A DNA stretch of 64,000 nt, from contig NZ_JACJOD010000030.1 in NCBI RefSeq assembly GCF_014695385.1, forward strand, positions 124,001 to 188,000, in the 5' to 3' direction. This stretch comes from Trichocoleus sp. FACHB-46. GTDB lineage: Bacteria; Cyanobacteriota; Cyanobacteriia; FACHB-46. Both the position numbers and the translations under genes were made by a program. Shown here piece after piece: positions 27,244-35,033 of the stretch. The notes under the pieces are model-generated. The model was given only the letters and a program-made list of their open reading frames with translations. It did no database searches and was not told the DNA's origin. Within the stretch, counting starts at the first letter, position 1. Each line of letters opens with the position of its first letter.

Positions 27244-28422
27244 TTGAGTCACCATTCAGACGGCATTGCACCCCACGGCGGCCAACTGATCAATCGCATC
27301 GTTACGCCAGAGCAAAAACAAACCTTTCTAGACAAAGCGGAACTTCTGCCTCGCGTTCAGCTTGATGAGCGAGCCACCTCTGATCTGGAATTGATTGCCA
27401 TTGGTGGCTTTAGCCCTCTGACTGGTTTCATGGAACAGGCAGACTACATCAATGTGGTCGAGAACATGCGCCTTGCGAATGGGCTGCCTTGGTCCATTCC
27501 AGTAACTCTATCTGTCACAGAAGCAGTCGCAGAGCCTCTGAAAGAAGGCAGTTTGGTACGCCTAGACAACCCCCAAGGCCAATTTATTGGCGTGTTGGAG
27601 CTGACGCAGAAGTATCAATACGACAAAGCCCACGAAGCGATCAATGTCTACCGCACGGACGACGAGAAGCATCCTGGCGTGAAAGTGGTTTACAACCAAG
27701 GGCCAGTTAATTTGGCAGGTCCAGTTTGGTTGCTGCAACGACAGTCTCATCCGCTTTTCCCTCAATACCAAATTGACCCTGCGGCATCACGGGCCATGTT
27801 TAAGGAAAAGGGCTGGAAAACCATTGTTGGGTTCCAAACCCGTAATCCCATCCACCGCGCTCACGAGTACATTCAAAAGTGCGCGATGGAAACCGTGGAT
27901 GGTCTGTTCTTGCATCCCCTCGTCGGCGCAACCAAAGAAGACGACATCGCGGCAGATGTGCGGATGCGCTGCTACGAAATTATTTTGGAGCATTACTACC
28001 CTCAAGATCGGGTGATTCTAGCAATCAACCCAGCCGCTATGCGTTATGCTGGCCCCCGCGAGGCAATTTTCCACGCTCTACTGCGGAAAAACTATGGTTG
28101 CACCCATTTTATTGTGGGTCGCGATCATGCTGGAGTTGGTGACTACTACGGCACCTACGACGCTCAGCATATCTTCGATGAGTTTGAACCCGGTGAATTG
28201 GGTATCACTCCCATGAAGTTTGAGCATGCTTTCTACTGCACTCGCACACAGGGCATGGCTACGACTAAAACCAGCCCCAGCAGCCCCGCCGAGCGAATTC
28301 ACCTCTCTGGCACCAAAGTTCGAGAAATGCTGCGTCGCGGTGAATTGCCACCTCCAGAGTTCTCTCGTCCCGAAGTAGCGGCTGAGCTAGCACGAGCGAT
28401 GCGAGTTCTGGTCGAAGCGTAA
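27244..28422 (+). CDS. sat: Sulfate adenylyltransferase (ATP sulfurylase)
   Basis: A 392-residue enzyme that makes adenosine 5'-phosphosulfate from ATP and sulfate, the first step of sulfate assimilation. It begins with TTG behind a strong AGGAAGAGGGA site. The active-site motifs are [15 protein letters not shown] (Q-x-R-N and H-x-x-H) and [15 protein letters not shown]. It lacks the C-terminal APS-kinase-like part of fungal enzymes, as expected for the bacterial single-domain type. A terminator follows the stop. Confidence 0.95.
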
Positions 28423-28451
28423 GTTTTTTAGAGCGATTTATACATCCTGTG

Positions 28452-28482
28452 TAGGGGCGGACAACGGTGCGTCCCTATTTTT
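28452..28482 (+). terminator. Rho-independent terminator of sat
   Basis: TAGGGGCG pairs with CGTCCCTA (8 bp, one G-T) around a short loop and is followed by ATTTTT, 30 bases after the sat stop. It also belongs to the TGTAGGGGCG repeat type seen at 13294 and 24902. Confidence 0.75.
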
Positions 28483-28603
28483 CGTCTATACTGGCAGTCG
28501 TTAAGGCTGGATTTTCTCAGCTACAGCCAACGTTAACCGCGAGGCTGTGGAGTTGAGTGCCTAGAAATCTCAGATCTAGATAGCCGTAGGGGAAAGCAAA
28601 GGC

Positions 28604-31075
28604 ATGGGACTGAAGCGGCGAGCTTTTTTGCAACAAGCTAGCTTGACCTTGGCAGCCTTAGGCATGAGTGAAGCAGGGTTGTTGCGCCTGAGCGATCGCT
28701 ACTCTCAAGTCTTGGCTGCACCCACCACCCGAAAACTAGCTTTGCTGGTGGGCATTAACCAATATCCCGACAGCATGTTTCACCGAACTGCCACTCGCAG
28801 CTCCGCCTTGGCGGGATGTGTAACTGATGTGGAGTTGCAGCGCGAATTACTCATTCATCGGTTTGGGTTTAGCGATCGCGACATCCTGACGCTGAGCGAT
28901 CGCCAAGCCACTCGCCAAGCCATTGAGTCTGCCTTTCTAGAGCATCTAACCGAGCAAGCACGGCCAGGAGATGTAGTGGTGTTCCATTTCAGCGGCTATG
29001 GTAGTCGAGTGCAGCTAGGGGGTGCCGGTGAAGCCCTACAAAGCAGCCTGGTTCCAGTCGATGGTGTTTTATCAAGCGATGATGCTGAGGGTGTTGTCAA
29101 CGACTTGCTAGAGGAAACGCTGCTGCTGCTGCTGCGATCGCTGCCAACCGACCGAGTGACCACAATTTTAGATACGAGCTATCTTTACCCCGGCAGTTCC
29201 TTACAGGGAAACTTGCGGCTGCGGGCTAGACCCAAACCTAAGTTGGGCAAACCCAGTCCAGAGGAATTGGCATTTCAAGACCAACTCCTAAGCCGCATCC
29301 AGGCATCGCGAGAGCAGGTGGGCGTGCAACGACGCTCTAGGCAGATTCCTGGGGTGGTTTTAGCCGCAGCCAGCTTAGACGAATTAGCTAGTTCGACAAT
29401 TCCTGGTTCTGCTCAAGAGCAAGCCTTTGAAACACAGTGGGGCGGTTTTAGTGCTGGCTTACTGACCTACGCCTTGACCCAGTATCTTTGGTCGGCGGCT
29501 CCTGCTCCTACTATTCAAGTCAGCTTCAATCGCGCTACCGCCAGTGTGGCTCAGTGGGTGGGCCAGGAACAGCCCACTTTGATGGGGTTGCAAAGCCGAT
29601 CGCAAGCTTTACTCACTTACTACACAGCACCCAGCGATCGCCTCGGAGCTGAAGGGATTGTGATCAGCGTGGATGAGGATGGTAGATCAGGTCAGCTTTG
29701 GCTCGGCGGATTGTTTAGCCCTGGTCTAGAAGCCTATGGTTTGAATTCTGTACTAACTCTAGTCTCACCATCCAGTTCTACAGATTTAGCAGCTGCCCCT
29801 TCAAACACTGAGCCCAGCGCGATCGCCTCGGGTATCTCTGAAACCGCTAACGCCTTGGAGACTGTTACCACTCAACCCCTACAAGTGCAGATTTACGCTC
29901 GCAATGGCCTGACTGCGAAAGCTCGCATTTCTACAGTGGGTGAGGCGGCGGCCGACCTCAAACTTCAGGTGGGGCAACTGCTACAAGAAACCGTCCGCGT
30001 GATCCCGCGCCATCTTAACTTAGCGATCGCTCTGGACCCGACGCTAGAGCGGATCGAACGAGTGGATGCGACCAGTGCATTTTCTGCCACACCTTATATC
30101 ACCGTAGTTACGGTGGGGGAGCAACCTGCTGACACGTTGTTGGGGCGAGTCAGTGAAGCCGTCCGTCCCACCACTGTAGCTACAGCAACGACTGAGGTCG
30201 CCATCGCTGACGTTAGCAGCAGTCGCAGCAGTGAATCCAGTGTCACCCCGCGCAGCTATGGCTTGTTTTCAGCCAGTCGAGAGTTAATTCCGAACAGCTT
30301 GGGAGAAGGTGGAGAAGCGGTCAAGTCAGCAATTCAGCGGCTCCTGCCTCACCTGAAAACGCGCTTAGCTGCCAAACTTTTGCGACTAACAGCCAACGAA
30401 GCATCTTCGCACTTGGGCGTGAAAGTCGCTTTAGAACTCGTCACTCCTAAACCTGCGATTCTCCTCACCCGATCCACGCTGCGGGCGAATGGTACCCCCT
30501 CAGGCAGCCGGGTGACGCCCACCCCGCCTACTGAGTTAGGCGTTCCTGCTTTACCAATGGGTAGCCAGATTCGTTACCAAGTTTCTAACTATAGCGATCG
30601 CCCCATTTATTTCGTCGCCCTAAGTTTAGACAGCAGCGGCAGCTTAATTGCGCTTTACTCTAGCCAAGCCACCACTCCTACAGAAGGGAGCGAAACCAAA
30701 TCTAGTCTGAAGCAGGAAGCGATCGCGCCTGGGGAAAGCTTGAGCGTGCCGCAAGTGAAAAACTCCCTGCAATGGATTGTGAGAGGGCCAGCGGGTTTTG
30801 CCGAAACTCATCTGATTTTTAGTGATGCACCTTTTACCCAAACTTTGGCGGCTCTAGAAGCTGCAATGCGGCCCATGGGGGAAGTGCAGCGATTGGGTGC
30901 CCCTTCTAATCCTTTAGAAATTGCTCAAGCTATTTGGCAAGATCTGCATCAAGCCAGTGCAGTGCCGACGCAAACGTTGAGCATTTCCACTGACATGTGG
31001 GCGCTAGATGTTAATCATTGGGCCACGCTCAGCTTTTTGTATCAAGTGGTCGAAAAACCGAATAAGCAATTGTGA
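28604..31075 (+). CDS. Caspase-like (orthocaspase/metacaspase) protein with Tyr-Ser in place of the catalytic His-Cys
   Basis: An 823-residue protein. The start MGLKRRAFLQQASLTLAALG has a twin-arginine (Tat) type signal, so it should be exported to the periplasm or thylakoid lumen. Residues ~43-200 are a peptidase C14 p20-like fold (LALLVGINQYPDS ... DVVVFHFSGYGSRV ... TTILDTSYLYPG). The catalytic His of the SGHG motif is Tyr132 and the catalytic Cys of the D-x-C-x motif is Ser192, so normal cysteine protease activity is unlikely. Residues ~640-790 resemble DUF4384 (IRYQVSNYSDRPIYFVALSL). Such Tyr-Ser variants are known among cyanobacterial orthocaspases. A binding or regulatory role is likely. 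Confidence 0.88.
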   Translation: MGLKRRAFLQQASLTLAALGMSEAGLLRLSDRYSQVLAAPTTRKLALLVGINQYPDSMFHRTATRSSALAGCVTDVELQRELLIHRFGFSDRDILTLSDRQATRQAIESAFLEHLTEQARPGDVVVFHFSGYGSRVQLGGAGEALQSSLVPVDGVLSSDDAEGVVNDLLEETLLLLLRSLPTDRVTTILDTSYLYPGSSLQGNLRLRARPKPKLGKPSPEELAFQDQLLSRIQASREQVGVQRRSRQIPGVVLAAASLDELASSTIPGSAQEQAFETQWGGFSAGLLTYALTQYLWSAAPAPTIQVSFNRATASVAQWVGQEQPTLMGLQSRSQALLTYYTAPSDRLGAEGIVISVDEDGRSGQLWLGGLFSPGLEAYGLNSVLTLVSPSSSTDLAAAPSNTEPSAIASGISETANALETVTTQPLQVQIYARNGLTAKARISTVGEAAADLKLQVGQLLQETVRVIPRHLNLAIALDPTLERIERVDATSAFSATPYITVVTVGEQPADTLLGRVSEAVRPTTVATATTEVAIADVSSSRSSESSVTPRSYGLFSASRELIPNSLGEGGEAVKSAIQRLLPHLKTRLAAKLLRLTANEASSHLGVKVALELVTPKPAILLTRSTLRANGTPSGSRVTPTPPTELGVPALPMGSQIRYQVSNYSDRPIYFVALSLDSSGSLIALYSSQATTPTEGSETKSSLKQEAIAPGESLSVPQVKNSLQWIVRGPAGFAETHLIFSDAPFTQTLAALEAAMRPMGEVQRLGAPSNPLEIAQAIWQDLHQASAVPTQTLSISTDMWALDVNHWATLSFLYQVVEKPNKQL

Positions 31076-31432: not shown

Positions 31433-31623
31433 TGGCTGAACTTCTCGAAACTCTCTGTAATAATTGCGGAACTTAGTATCGTAGTGTCAGCCATAGACTC
31501 TTTGAAGCCTGTAAGATAAAACTCGATCGAAGGCTTGAGGCCAGAGCCAGACGTAGTACCTTGCATTTCTGGTGGCACCTCTTGTCTCCTTGGAGCCTAT
31601 TCAAAGAGAGTAAAGCTGCATTT

Positions 31624-32655
31624 ATGCGTCAATGGCATTCTTTCATCGTGACAACCGTGTTGATGGGTCTTTCCCTAGCAGGGTGTAGCCAACAACAGCG
31701 GCAAAGCCAACTAGACACCATCATCAGTCGGGGTAATGTCGTCTGTGGTGTCAGTGGCGAACTACCAGGATTTAGTTTTGTAGGGCAAGACGGTAAGTAT
31801 TCCGGACTCGATGTAGATGTGTGTCGAGCGATCGCCGCTGCTCTGTTTGATAACCCAGAGGCTGTAGAATTCCGTAACCTCAACGCTAAGGAACGCTTTA
31901 CCGCCGTCCAGACGGGCGAAGTAGATGTGCTCAGCCGCAACACTACCTGGACAATGAGCCGGGATACTTCCGTCGGCCTAGAATTTGCCCCCACAGTGTT
32001 TTATGACGGGCAAGGGGTGATGGTGAAACAAAATGGCGGCATCAAATCCTTGACTGACCTGAAAGGCCGCTCTATTTGCACCCAAACCGGAACCACCAAC
32101 GAGCAAAACTTGGCTGATGAAATGCGGAAGCGCAACATCAACTACACTCCGGTGGTGTTTGAAGATGTCAATATCGTGTTTGCCACTTACCAAGAAGGCC
32201 GTTGCGATGCGGTGACGTCCGATCGCTCGCAATTACTCTCCCGACGTAGCGCTTTACCCAAGCCTGAAGAGCATGTAATTTTGACTGACGTAGTTTCCAA
32301 GGAACCCCTTGCTCCTGCCGTGGCTGCGGGAGATGCCAAGTGGAACGATGCGGTGCGCTGGACCATTTACACCTTGATTAATGCCGAAGAAATGGGGATC
32401 AACTCCAAAAACGTCACGCAACTCGCTAGTAGCAGCAAAGATCCGGGAGTGCGTCGCTTTTTAGGGGCAGAAGGCAACTTAGGTGAAGGTGCAGGCTTGC
32501 CCAATGACTTTACGGTGCGAATTATTAAGCATGTGGGCAACTATGGCGAGATTTACGATCGCAACCTAGGGCCAAAAACGAAACTAAATTTGCCACGTGG
32601 CCAAAATCAATTGTGGAATCAGGGGGGGCTGCTCTATGCTCCACCTTTCCGGTAA
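31624..32655 (+). CDS. natF: Amino-acid ABC transporter substrate-binding lipoprotein (NatF/BztA type)
   Basis: A 343-residue periplasmic binding protein. The start at 31624 gives a lipoprotein signal, MRQWHSFIVTTVLMG then LSLAGC (lipobox Cys ~19). A type 2 periplasmic-binding fold follows, with SGLDVDVCRAIAAALF, DVLSRNTTWTMSRD and GRSICTQTGTTNEQNLADEM. It fits the BztA/AapJ/NatF group that feeds acidic and neutral amino acids to a two-permease importer. It is the first gene of natF-natG-natH, nine bases before natG. Confidence 0.92.
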   Translation: MRQWHSFIVTTVLMGLSLAGCSQQQRQSQLDTIISRGNVVCGVSGELPGFSFVGQDGKYSGLDVDVCRAIAAALFDNPEAVEFRNLNAKERFTAVQTGEVDVLSRNTTWTMSRDTSVGLEFAPTVFYDGQGVMVKQNGGIKSLTDLKGRSICTQTGTTNEQNLADEMRKRNINYTPVVFEDVNIVFATYQEGRCDAVTSDRSQLLSRRSALPKPEEHVILTDVVSKEPLAPAVAAGDAKWNDAVRWTIYTLINAEEMGINSKNVTQLASSSKDPGVRRFLGAEGNLGEGAGLPNDFTVRIIKHVGNYGEIYDRNLGPKTKLNLPRGQNQLWNQGGLLYAPPFR

Positions 32656-32664
32656 GGCGATCGC

Positions 32665-33825
32665 ATGAAAACGCAACGCTCCGTTCCGCTCTGGCGAGAT
32701 GTGCGATTTTGGTGGGTCGTTGGGCAAGTGCTAGTCGTGCTCCTGACCGCGATCGCGATCGCCATTTTCTGGAGCAATCTCAGCCGCAACTTACAACAGT
32801 TGGGGATTCAATTTGGCTTCGGTTTTCTAAACTCGCAAGCCGCCTTTGATATTGGCGAAACCCCGATTTCTTATCGCCCTTCAGATAACTACGCACGAGC
32901 GTTACAAGTTGGGCTGGCGAATTCTTTGCGAGTTACCGTTTTTGGCATCGTCTTGGCAACAGTTGTAGGAGTGACTGCTGGCATTGCGCGTCTCTCGGAC
33001 AACTGGCTAGTGCGGCAGCTCGCTTTGGTGTATGTAGAAACGCTACGCAATACGCCTTTACTTTTGCAACTGTTTTTCTGGTACTTTGCGGTTTTTCTGG
33101 GTTTTCCGCGTCTACCAGCTCATATTCAGTTGCCAGGACCAATCTATTTAACTCAGCAGACTGTGGCGTTGCCGTGGTTTCACGTCACCCGCGATACGGA
33201 TGTCTGGCTCTTACTGTTGTCAGCTAATTTGCTGCTGGTATGGGCTTGGCATTGGTGGGGTAGTAGAGCCGCCGCCCCTACAGTCCCTTTATTGCTGAAG
33301 CTGTTAGGCACCCTGGCTGTGACTGTCGCGATCGCCCTGATTATCTTTGAAACCGAAATTCTGGGTTGGGATGCGCCGCGCATTGTTGCCGACAGCATTG
33401 AAGGTGGCCTGCAACTCTCACCTGAATTTGCCGCTTTGTTGGTGGGCCTGAGTTTATACACCGCCACCTTTATCGCTGAGATTGTCCGAGGTGGGGTGCA
33501 GTCGGTGTCCCAAGGACAATGGGAAGCAGCTCGTGCCTTAGGTCTGAGACCTAGCTATATTCTGCGTCTCGTGATTTTTCCGCAAGCGCTGCGATCGATC
33601 GTGCCGTCTTTGGGCAACCAATACCTCAACCTTGCTAAAAACTCTAGCTTGGCGATCGCGATTGGCTATTCAGACCTGTATGCGGTGGCTTCGACTACCT
33701 ACAACCAAACGGGTCGCGCCGTGGAAGTGATGGTGTTGATCTCAGTGACTTATCTTTCTATCAGCCTGGTCATTTCTGGCTTGATCAATTGGTATAACCG
33801 CACAGTGCAACTGGTGGAGCGCTAA
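32665..33825 (+). CDS. natG: Amino-acid ABC transporter permease NatG/BztB
   Basis: A 386-residue inner-membrane permease of the His/Glu/Gln/Arg/opine family with the long form of the Bzt/Aap/Nat group: an N-terminal helix, a large extra segment (residues ~50-230), then the core. The coupling loop EAARALGLRPSYILRLVIFP shows the EAA motif. It pairs with NatH to form the translocation pore. Eight bases separate it from natH. Confidence 0.92.
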   Translation: MKTQRSVPLWRDVRFWWVVGQVLVVLLTAIAIAIFWSNLSRNLQQLGIQFGFGFLNSQAAFDIGETPISYRPSDNYARALQVGLANSLRVTVFGIVLATVVGVTAGIARLSDNWLVRQLALVYVETLRNTPLLLQLFFWYFAVFLGFPRLPAHIQLPGPIYLTQQTVALPWFHVTRDTDVWLLLLSANLLLVWAWHWWGSRAAAPTVPLLLKLLGTLAVTVAIALIIFETEILGWDAPRIVADSIEGGLQLSPEFAALLVGLSLYTATFIAEIVRGGVQSVSQGQWEAARALGLRPSYILRLVIFPQALRSIVPSLGNQYLNLAKNSSLAIAIGYSDLYAVASTTYNQTGRAVEVMVLISVTYLSISLVISGLINWYNRTVQLVER

Positions 33826-33833
33826 ACAAAACT

Positions 33834-35033
33834 ATGACGCTAGATGATGCTCCACCACCCGTTTTATCCATCACCCCGTGGCAATGGCTACGCCGTAATT
33901 TATTCAACACTTGGTACAACAGCCTGCTGACGCTGATTTGTCTGTGGCTGCTCTTCCAAGTGTTGCAAGCGGTTCTGGGATGGGTGTTTACGCAAGCTCA
34001 GTGGACGGTGGTGCAAACCAACTTACGCCTCTTCTTCATTGGCCGCTATCCACCCAACTTGGCTTGGCGGTTATGGCTGGTGTTGGGGATTGTCGTTGGT
34101 TTAGCAGGGCTTTCTTGGGGCAGTTTGGCACCTGCGCGATCGCTTTGGTCCAAGCGAGGAGTCAGCATCGTTACAGCGATCGCCCTAGGCGTGACTATAC
34201 TGTTGCCCTTGCCACTACCACCTCGCCTCTGGTTAGGCGCGATCGCGCTACTTCTATTTGGCAGTTTTTGGTTAGGAAAACGTTTCGCAACTCTGCTGAA
34301 ACCTCAGCTAGCTTGGGCTTGGCTAGGCGCTTTTCCGATATTGCTGTGGCTAATTGGCGGCGGGCTAGGACTCAGATCTGTCAGCACAAATTTCTGGAAT
34401 GGTCTGTTGCTGACGATGTTGCTGGCAACTACCAGTATTGTGCTGGCTTTCCCCTTTAGTGTGTTGCTGGCGCTAGGGCGACAGAGTAATTTACCTGTGG
34501 TGCGGTGGTTTTGCACCCTGTTTGTAGAAATCGTGCGCGGCCTGCCTTTAATCGGCATCTTGTTTCTAGCCCAGGTGATGTTGCCCCTAATCTTGCCTGT
34601 CGAGTTACGGCTAGACCGATTGTTACGAGCGATCGCCGGACTCGTGCTCTTTAATGCGGCTTACCTAGCAGAAAATGTCCGGGCTGGTCTTCAAGCAGTG
34701 CCCAGAGGACAGAGTGAAGCGGCTCGTGCTTTGGGGCTCAACCCCTTGTGGGTGTTATGGCTGATTGTGCTACCGCAAGCCTTACGGGTGGTGATTCCCG
34801 CGATCGTTGGGCAGTTTATCTCCCTGTTTAAGGACACCTCTTTGCTCTCAATCTTTGCCCTAGTAGAACTCACCGGAATTGCGCGATCGATCTTAGCTCA
34901 ACCGCAATTTTTGGGCCGCTACGCTGAGGTTTACCTTTTTGTCGGTCTCCTCTACTGGATAGTTTGCTATTCCATGTCGATCGCTAGCCGACGCCTAGAG
35001 CAGCATCTCGGCGTCGGCCACAAAAGAACTTAA
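33834..35033 (+). CDS. natH: Amino-acid ABC transporter permease NatH/BztC
   Basis: A 399-residue permease partner of NatG, with about eight hydrophobic helices and the EAA loop EAARALGLNPLWVLWLIVLP. ENVRAGLQAVPRGQSEAARA shows the usual family spacing. Its stop overlaps by four bases (TTAA) the stop of a small gene on the other strand. Confidence 0.92.
   Translation: MTLDDAPPPVLSITPWQWLRRNLFNTWYNSLLTLICLWLLFQVLQAVLGWVFTQAQWTVVQTNLRLFFIGRYPPNLAWRLWLVLGIVVGLAGLSWGSLAPARSLWSKRGVSIVTAIALGVTILLPLPLPPRLWLGAIALLLFGSFWLGKRFATLLKPQLAWAWLGAFPILLWLIGGGLGLRSVSTNFWNGLLLTMLLATTSIVLAFPFSVLLALGRQSNLPVVRWFCTLFVEIVRGLPLIGILFLAQVMLPLILPVELRLDRLLRAIAGLVLFNAAYLAENVRAGLQAVPRGQSEAARALGLNPLWVLWLIVLPQALRVVIPAIVGQFISLFKDTSLLSIFALVELTGIARSILAQPQFLGRYAEVYLFVGLLYWIVCYSMSIASRRLEQHLGVGHKRT

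Follow-up and report, generated by a model that had tools for sequence, protein, structure and literature searches.

A Tat-exported Tyr-Ser pseudo-orthocaspase of Trichocoleus sp. FACHB-46, its conserved linkage to the ATP sulfurylase gene and a possible binding role in photosystem II maintenance

Cyanobacterial YS pseudo-orthocaspases have already been described (Klemencic et al. 2019, PMC6426788), and the protein considered here shares with them the p20 fold, the replacement of the catalytic His and Cys by Tyr and Ser, a Tat-like leader, a conserved acidic pocket, and the absence from Gloeobacter and picocyanobacteria. Two relatives of this kind have been studied. SyOC (sll0148 of Synechocystis PCC 6803) is a Tyr-Gly pseudo form and the only orthocaspase of its genome; its knock-out grows normally, tolerates more peroxide and recovers its photochemistry faster after peroxide (PMC7889975). 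A0101 of Synechococcus PCC 7002, a homologue of sll0148, was assigned to the thylakoid lumen by PsbU-APEX2 proximity labelling (enrichment 7.64, none with cytoplasmic APEX2), where it is among the top entries and stands in the company of the photosystem II assembly and repair proteins psb32, ycf48, psbO, ctpA and psb27 (PMC7880944). The word “caspase” appears in the latter paper in the A0101 table row only, and the word “lumen” is absent from the SyOC paper. Both proteins differ from ours in the dyad letters, and they are likened to it via the homology given in the papers and not by alignment.

In one genome, that of Nodularia spumigena, the caspase-domain gene of metacaspase M32 (NSP_23610) was noted to adjoin sat; its expression is steady, the authors term it housekeeping, and a link to sulfur is suggested (PMC4933709). 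Trypanosoma brucei MCA4, also of the Tyr-Ser type, and human cFLIP are dead caspase-fold proteins that act without cutting (PMC6426788); they belong to other organisms and compartments and have other partners, so that the likeness is an analogy only. Searching the literature by locus tag for the gene presumed orthologous in S. elongatus yielded no paper.

The window, i.e., the whole stretch of 64,000 nucleotides that was analysed, comes from the genome of Trichocoleus sp. FACHB-46, and all features given below lie on its plus strand. The gene extends from the ATG at 28604 to the stop at 31075 (28604..31075), encodes 823 amino acids and has orthologues in many cyanobacteria. It is not a decaying pseudogene, since it is under purifying selection within the genus (dN/dS 0.13-0.15); random decay is likewise ruled out by the congener proteins, which are 83-84% identical to it along the full length.

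The protein begins with a Tat signal peptide at residues 1-39 (28604..28720; MGLKRRAFLQ...VLAA), in which KRRAFLQ is followed by a hydrophobic stretch and a VLA-A cleavage-like site, the probable cleavage point. Of 141 pseudo homologues, 139 retain the arginines R5 and R6, and 138 of the 141 have an A-x-A-like site after them; the assignment relies on the RRxFL motif, the hydrophobic stretch and the cleavage site as read by eye, and Pfam TAT_signal matches one of 29 family members. The caspase domain at residues 43-324 (28730..29575) matches Pfam Peptidase_C14 above the cut-off (E 2.2e-16). An AlphaFold model of the protein, computed from 52 homologues (pLDDT 84, pTM 0.86), finds its best solved-structure matches in plant metacaspase 9 (Foldseek E 2e-14), metacaspase 4 and caspase 9. 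A beta-sandwich at residues 651-742 (30554..30829) resembles DUF4384, with 21.9 bits against a curated cut-off of 27, but 13 of the 29 proteins examined from the family do match DUF4384 (best E 6.3e-10). For the central domain, searches of the PDB by sequence and by structure gave no significant match; resemblances to LptE, TraT and TolB were weak, below significance, and were dropped.

The C14 p20 domain, the replaced dyad, the Tat-like extension, the pocket residues D75 and D190 and the placement in the pseudo clade are the features of a YS pseudo-orthocaspase, and this identity and family assignment is, in our opinion, hardly in doubt. Such proteins are also characterised by having no other identifiable domain; here DUF4384 stays below the cut-off, as noted, and is matched in part of the family. 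The preliminary description of this DNA, which had named a clear caspase-type domain with SGYG (Y132) and DTSY (S192), a Tat-type leader with RRAFLQ and the existence of Tyr-Ser variants among cyanobacterial orthocaspases, agrees with these results; the DUF4384-like C-terminus that it named is weak in this protein.

The preliminary reading would have been contradicted by a true His and Cys located elsewhere in the domain. Such a pair was looked for and not found: in the alignment with His-Cys (HC) paralogues, the catalytic His is matched by Y132 and the catalytic Cys by S192, so that no other His or Cys takes over. The protein lacks the dyad that defines an active C14 orthocaspase. The two residues belong to the SGYG motif at 130-133 (28991..29002) and to DTS at 190-192 (29171..29179), respectively. 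Among 141 pseudo sequences, position 132 is occupied by Y (109), L (11), F (8), C (7) or H (5), and position 192 by S (105), G (31), C (2) or R (2). By contrast, D75 (the S1-pocket aspartate, 28826..28828), S130, D190 and R207 are invariant in the same sequences with one gap at most (one for D75), the pocket being assigned from the residues that PMC6426788 gives for T. brucei MCA2. Ranked by variability among the 253 sites of the caspase domain, the dyad positions are 82nd and 69th, and the pocket residues are among the least variable; over its full length, the protein has few invariant columns, and D75, S130 and D190 are among these. Since the dyad varies within one clade, the feature that is kept is the substrate pocket and not the Tyr-Ser pair, and Tyr-Ser as a novel catalytic pair is ruled out by the variability of both positions. 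This suggests that the constraint falls on the binding of basic residues rather than on Tyr-Ser chemistry, although the pocket residues could be retained for purely structural or folding reasons. The strongest clade-specific conservation is found at residues 483-491 (RIERVDATS), part of a helix at 483-492 (RIERVDATSA, 30050..30079) inside the central domain; E485 and D488 are invariant in the pseudo clade, and the element is missing from HC paralogues.

A quick-version tree of the caspase p20 domain, rooted on outgroup orthocaspases, places the YS, YG, LS, LG, FS, CS, HG, YC and YR forms in one clade (63 pseudo sequences, SH-aLRT 99.7), sister to HC paralogues with the same Tat leader and full-length architecture. 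The sequences named by Klemencic et al. are not part of this tree; Nostoc sp. T09, which was modelled in that work, is represented in the homologue set by the locus L177. Because the 63 pseudo sequences form one clade beside the HC paralogues, the simplest account is a single loss of catalysis that preceded the separation of most cyanobacterial families and was followed by drift of the dyad; independent losses of the dyad are unsupported for the same reason. Compared with PMC6426788, the clade adds the YG, LS, LG, FS, CS, HG, YC and YR forms, and the Tat leader of the HC paralogues, the central domain and the DUF4384-like end are further points not found there. The view of the literature that the Tat leader is a hallmark of the pseudo form is thereby ruled out. 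The preliminary description had read export together with the loss of the dyad; the leader is present as claimed, but the HC sister paralogues carry it too.

The gene is widely distributed, usually with one pseudo copy per genome. Matches to the window protein were obtained in 54 of 59 sampled relatives, the weakest being other orthocaspases, and the profile matches 122 of 145 genomes in a wider sample of the class. The genomes without a match belong mainly to the picocyanobacteria with small genomes (family f2), to the Gloeobacter type (f14) and to f33. Neither the Gloeobacter-type genomes nor the f33 genome G093, which we take to be the thylakoid-less Anthocerotibacter panamensis, yielded a member of the pseudo clade; two matches in the Gloeobacter family (G082 and G113) were rejected as pseudo members, both being of HC type. 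The gene is also absent from three near-complete f16 genomes (G061, G083 and G094), so that its absence is not confined to thylakoid-less or streamlined lineages and the gene is dispensable.

A search for active-type paralogues in the same genome, proposed in the preliminary description, had a divided outcome. Two other C14 proteins of 1283 and 1783 amino acids (L094 on contig C22 and L095 on contig C6) have intact SGHG and D-C-C motifs, the second with a WD40-like tail; but both are leaderless, and a Tat-tagged HC sister such as the one present in a congener (L079) was not found in the window genome. It may be added that genes of HC-type Tat-exported orthocaspases adjoin genes of CHAT-domain proteins (L079, L076, L074, L075, L081-L084, L104, L106): the domain is present in 10 of 10 neighbours tested, mostly as TPR-CHAT, and both neighbours whose N-terminus was read begin with a Sec-like leader. 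Judging from these sequences, an HC orthocaspase and a CHAT protein look like a recurrent exported pair of caspase-fold proteases.

Directly upstream of the gene lies sat (27244..28422), encoding ATP sulfurylase (sulfate adenylyltransferase; Pfam E 8.6e-98), and this linkage is conserved. In the unselected class sample, sat stands immediately before the gene in 63 of 116 genomes, from 21 families (the 116 include G082, with its HC-type match); with G132, and with five further gene-bearing genomes in the denominator, this makes 64 of about 120. In a set of 80 named genomes chosen by similarity to the query, it follows sat at 67 of 77 informative loci. In 26 of these 63 genomes, the two matches are no more than 45 bp apart, which is operon-like, and the gene is probably co-expressed with sat in many species. 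The two are unlinked in several families (f5, f20, f24 and most of f26), and sat was not found beside any of the HC paralogue loci examined. Apart from the Nodularia case, a literature search found no report of the wider linkage pattern. In the window, sat and the gene are separated by 181 bp (28423..28603), in which promoter and terminator scans gave nothing above chance. A small palindromic repeat at 28450-28470, TGTAGGGGCG-NAC-NNNN-GTGC, recurs as four near-copies at other places in the genome and may account for the longer spacer in this genus. The gene mnmA, encoding a tRNA 2-thiouridylase, is repeatedly found upstream of sat, giving the order mnmA-sat-gene in many cyanobacteria (L034, L205, L211, L212, L226, L240 and others).

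Downstream neighbours are conserved only inside families, ftsH excepted. Amino-acid ABC transporter genes (a binding protein and two permeases, by sequence reading) lie at 31561-35033 of the window; they are kept in the genus only, and the transporter is thus ruled out as a conserved downstream partner. The order psbO-sat-gene-ftsH occurs in f11 genomes and in two S. elongatus-type genomes of f12 (including G032). In marine picocyanobacteria, 9 of 11 loci read psbO-sat-ftsH with sat and ftsH about 45 bp apart and the gene missing, and the remaining two (L228 and L232) are rearranged. The contiguous block is found in L227, L229-L231 and L233-L237, where sat is divergent, with 38-40% identity to that of the window where measured. 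As remnants of this order in other loci, psbO lies two genes upstream of the pseudo-orthocaspase gene in L238, the mnmA gene adjoins it without sat in L240, and sat and ftsH are near each other with the gene absent in L226. From these gene orders we infer an early cluster psbO-sat-gene-ftsH, from which the gene would have been deleted in the picocyanobacterial line. The linkage may mirror co-regulation or inheritance instead of joint function. A literature search combining psbO, ftsH, sulfate adenylyltransferase and Prochlorococcus found nothing.

We propose, with a probability of roughly 0.4, that the protein is an ancient, vertically kept lumenal pseudo-orthocaspase that binds basic segments without cutting them and serves the maintenance of photosystem II. 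It would have arisen in one event from a Tat-exported active orthocaspase, losing catalysis and retaining the acidic pocket for polypeptide segments that contain Arg or Lys. The protein presumably folds in the cytoplasm and is then exported by the Tat pathway into the thylakoid lumen, a location extended to it from the PCC 7002 homologue A0101 (PMC7880944). There it would attach to segments that are basic, unfolded or exposed, either in photosystem II or in lumenal proteins. As a holding factor or an adaptor it would serve the maintenance of photosystem II and the response to stress, perhaps on the lumen side of FtsH-dependent repair. The peptide binding, the photosystem II role and the FtsH link are our inferences; a binding role most simply accounts for the leader, the loss of the dyad and the strong conservation. 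The conserved, exported, non-proteolytic binding role put forward at the outset is supported in part, with the correction that conservation does not extend to the Tyr-Ser pair. The narrower proposal, that the dead caspase takes part in photosystem II repair as a recognition or adaptor factor in the lumen, linked early to psbO, sat and FtsH and deleted from the picocyanobacterial cluster, is more doubtful. Against the photosystem II reading, picocyanobacteria photosynthesise without the gene, and sat is cytosolic and unlinked in several families; nor does the phenotype of the SyOC knock-out look like the loss of a simple repair factor (PMC7889975), which keeps other readings alive.

It is tempting to regard the sat-gene pair as a functional unit, e.g., with a sensor in the lumen or periplasm that is coupled to sulfate activation. 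Indeed, no other neighbour is kept as widely as sat, which often lies within 50 bp, MnmA is a sulfur-using enzyme, and a sulfur link was proposed from Nodularia M32 (PMC4933709); we nevertheless consider a sulfur or redox role unlikely, since sat is cytosolic and the gene product exported, several families have no linkage, and the older cluster includes psbO and ftsH and persists as psbO-sat-ftsH in picocyanobacteria that have no such gene. A pro-death or stress-sensitising factor, as suggested for SyOC, would agree with the greater peroxide tolerance of the Synechocystis deletion (PMC7889975). That phenotype could be indirect, and the wide one-copy presence, the strong purifying selection and the housekeeping expression of the Nodularia M32 gene (PMC4933709) suit maintenance better, which makes such a factor improbable.

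We presume that regulation of an active caspase-like protease through mimicry or a heterodimer, in the manner of cFLIP and caspase-8, is improbable as well. The two intact C14 proteins of the genome and the HC paralogues that share its Tat leader and architecture, in the congener and elsewhere, could serve as partners; however, the former are leaderless and would occupy another compartment, and many genomes, including those of S. elongatus type, have no further member of the Tat family, an argument also drawn from unicellular strains by Klemencic et al. (PMC6426788). The pocket might instead be a structural relic, the central RIERVDATSA domain and the C-terminus doing the work; the peak of clade-specific conservation at 483-491, with its invariant E485 and D488, speaks for this, but D75, S130 and D190 are themselves among the few invariant columns, and we give the relic little credence. 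Residual cleavage or other catalysis with Ser192 or another residue as nucleophile would be consistent with the intact pocket, yet it is very improbable for a family in which, out of 141 sequences, 31 have Gly and 2 have Arg at position 192 and position 132 is freely variable.

The first reading of this gene is right in its main lines; what is added to the proposed lumenal binding protein is its evolutionary history, a corrected account of the conserved feature and the linkage to sat and to genes of photosystem II. Forms that differ in their dyad letters (YS, YG, LG, etc.) are not separate families, which bears on how such proteins are counted and named. Earlier discussion of pseudo-orthocaspases was concerned mostly with cell death or a vague link to photosynthesis. 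We believe that the single loss of the dyad with the pocket kept, the sat linkage, the psbO/ftsH cluster, the picocyanobacterial deletion and the little-noticed entry in a lumen proteome converge, and that together they narrow an open function to a short list of testable partners.
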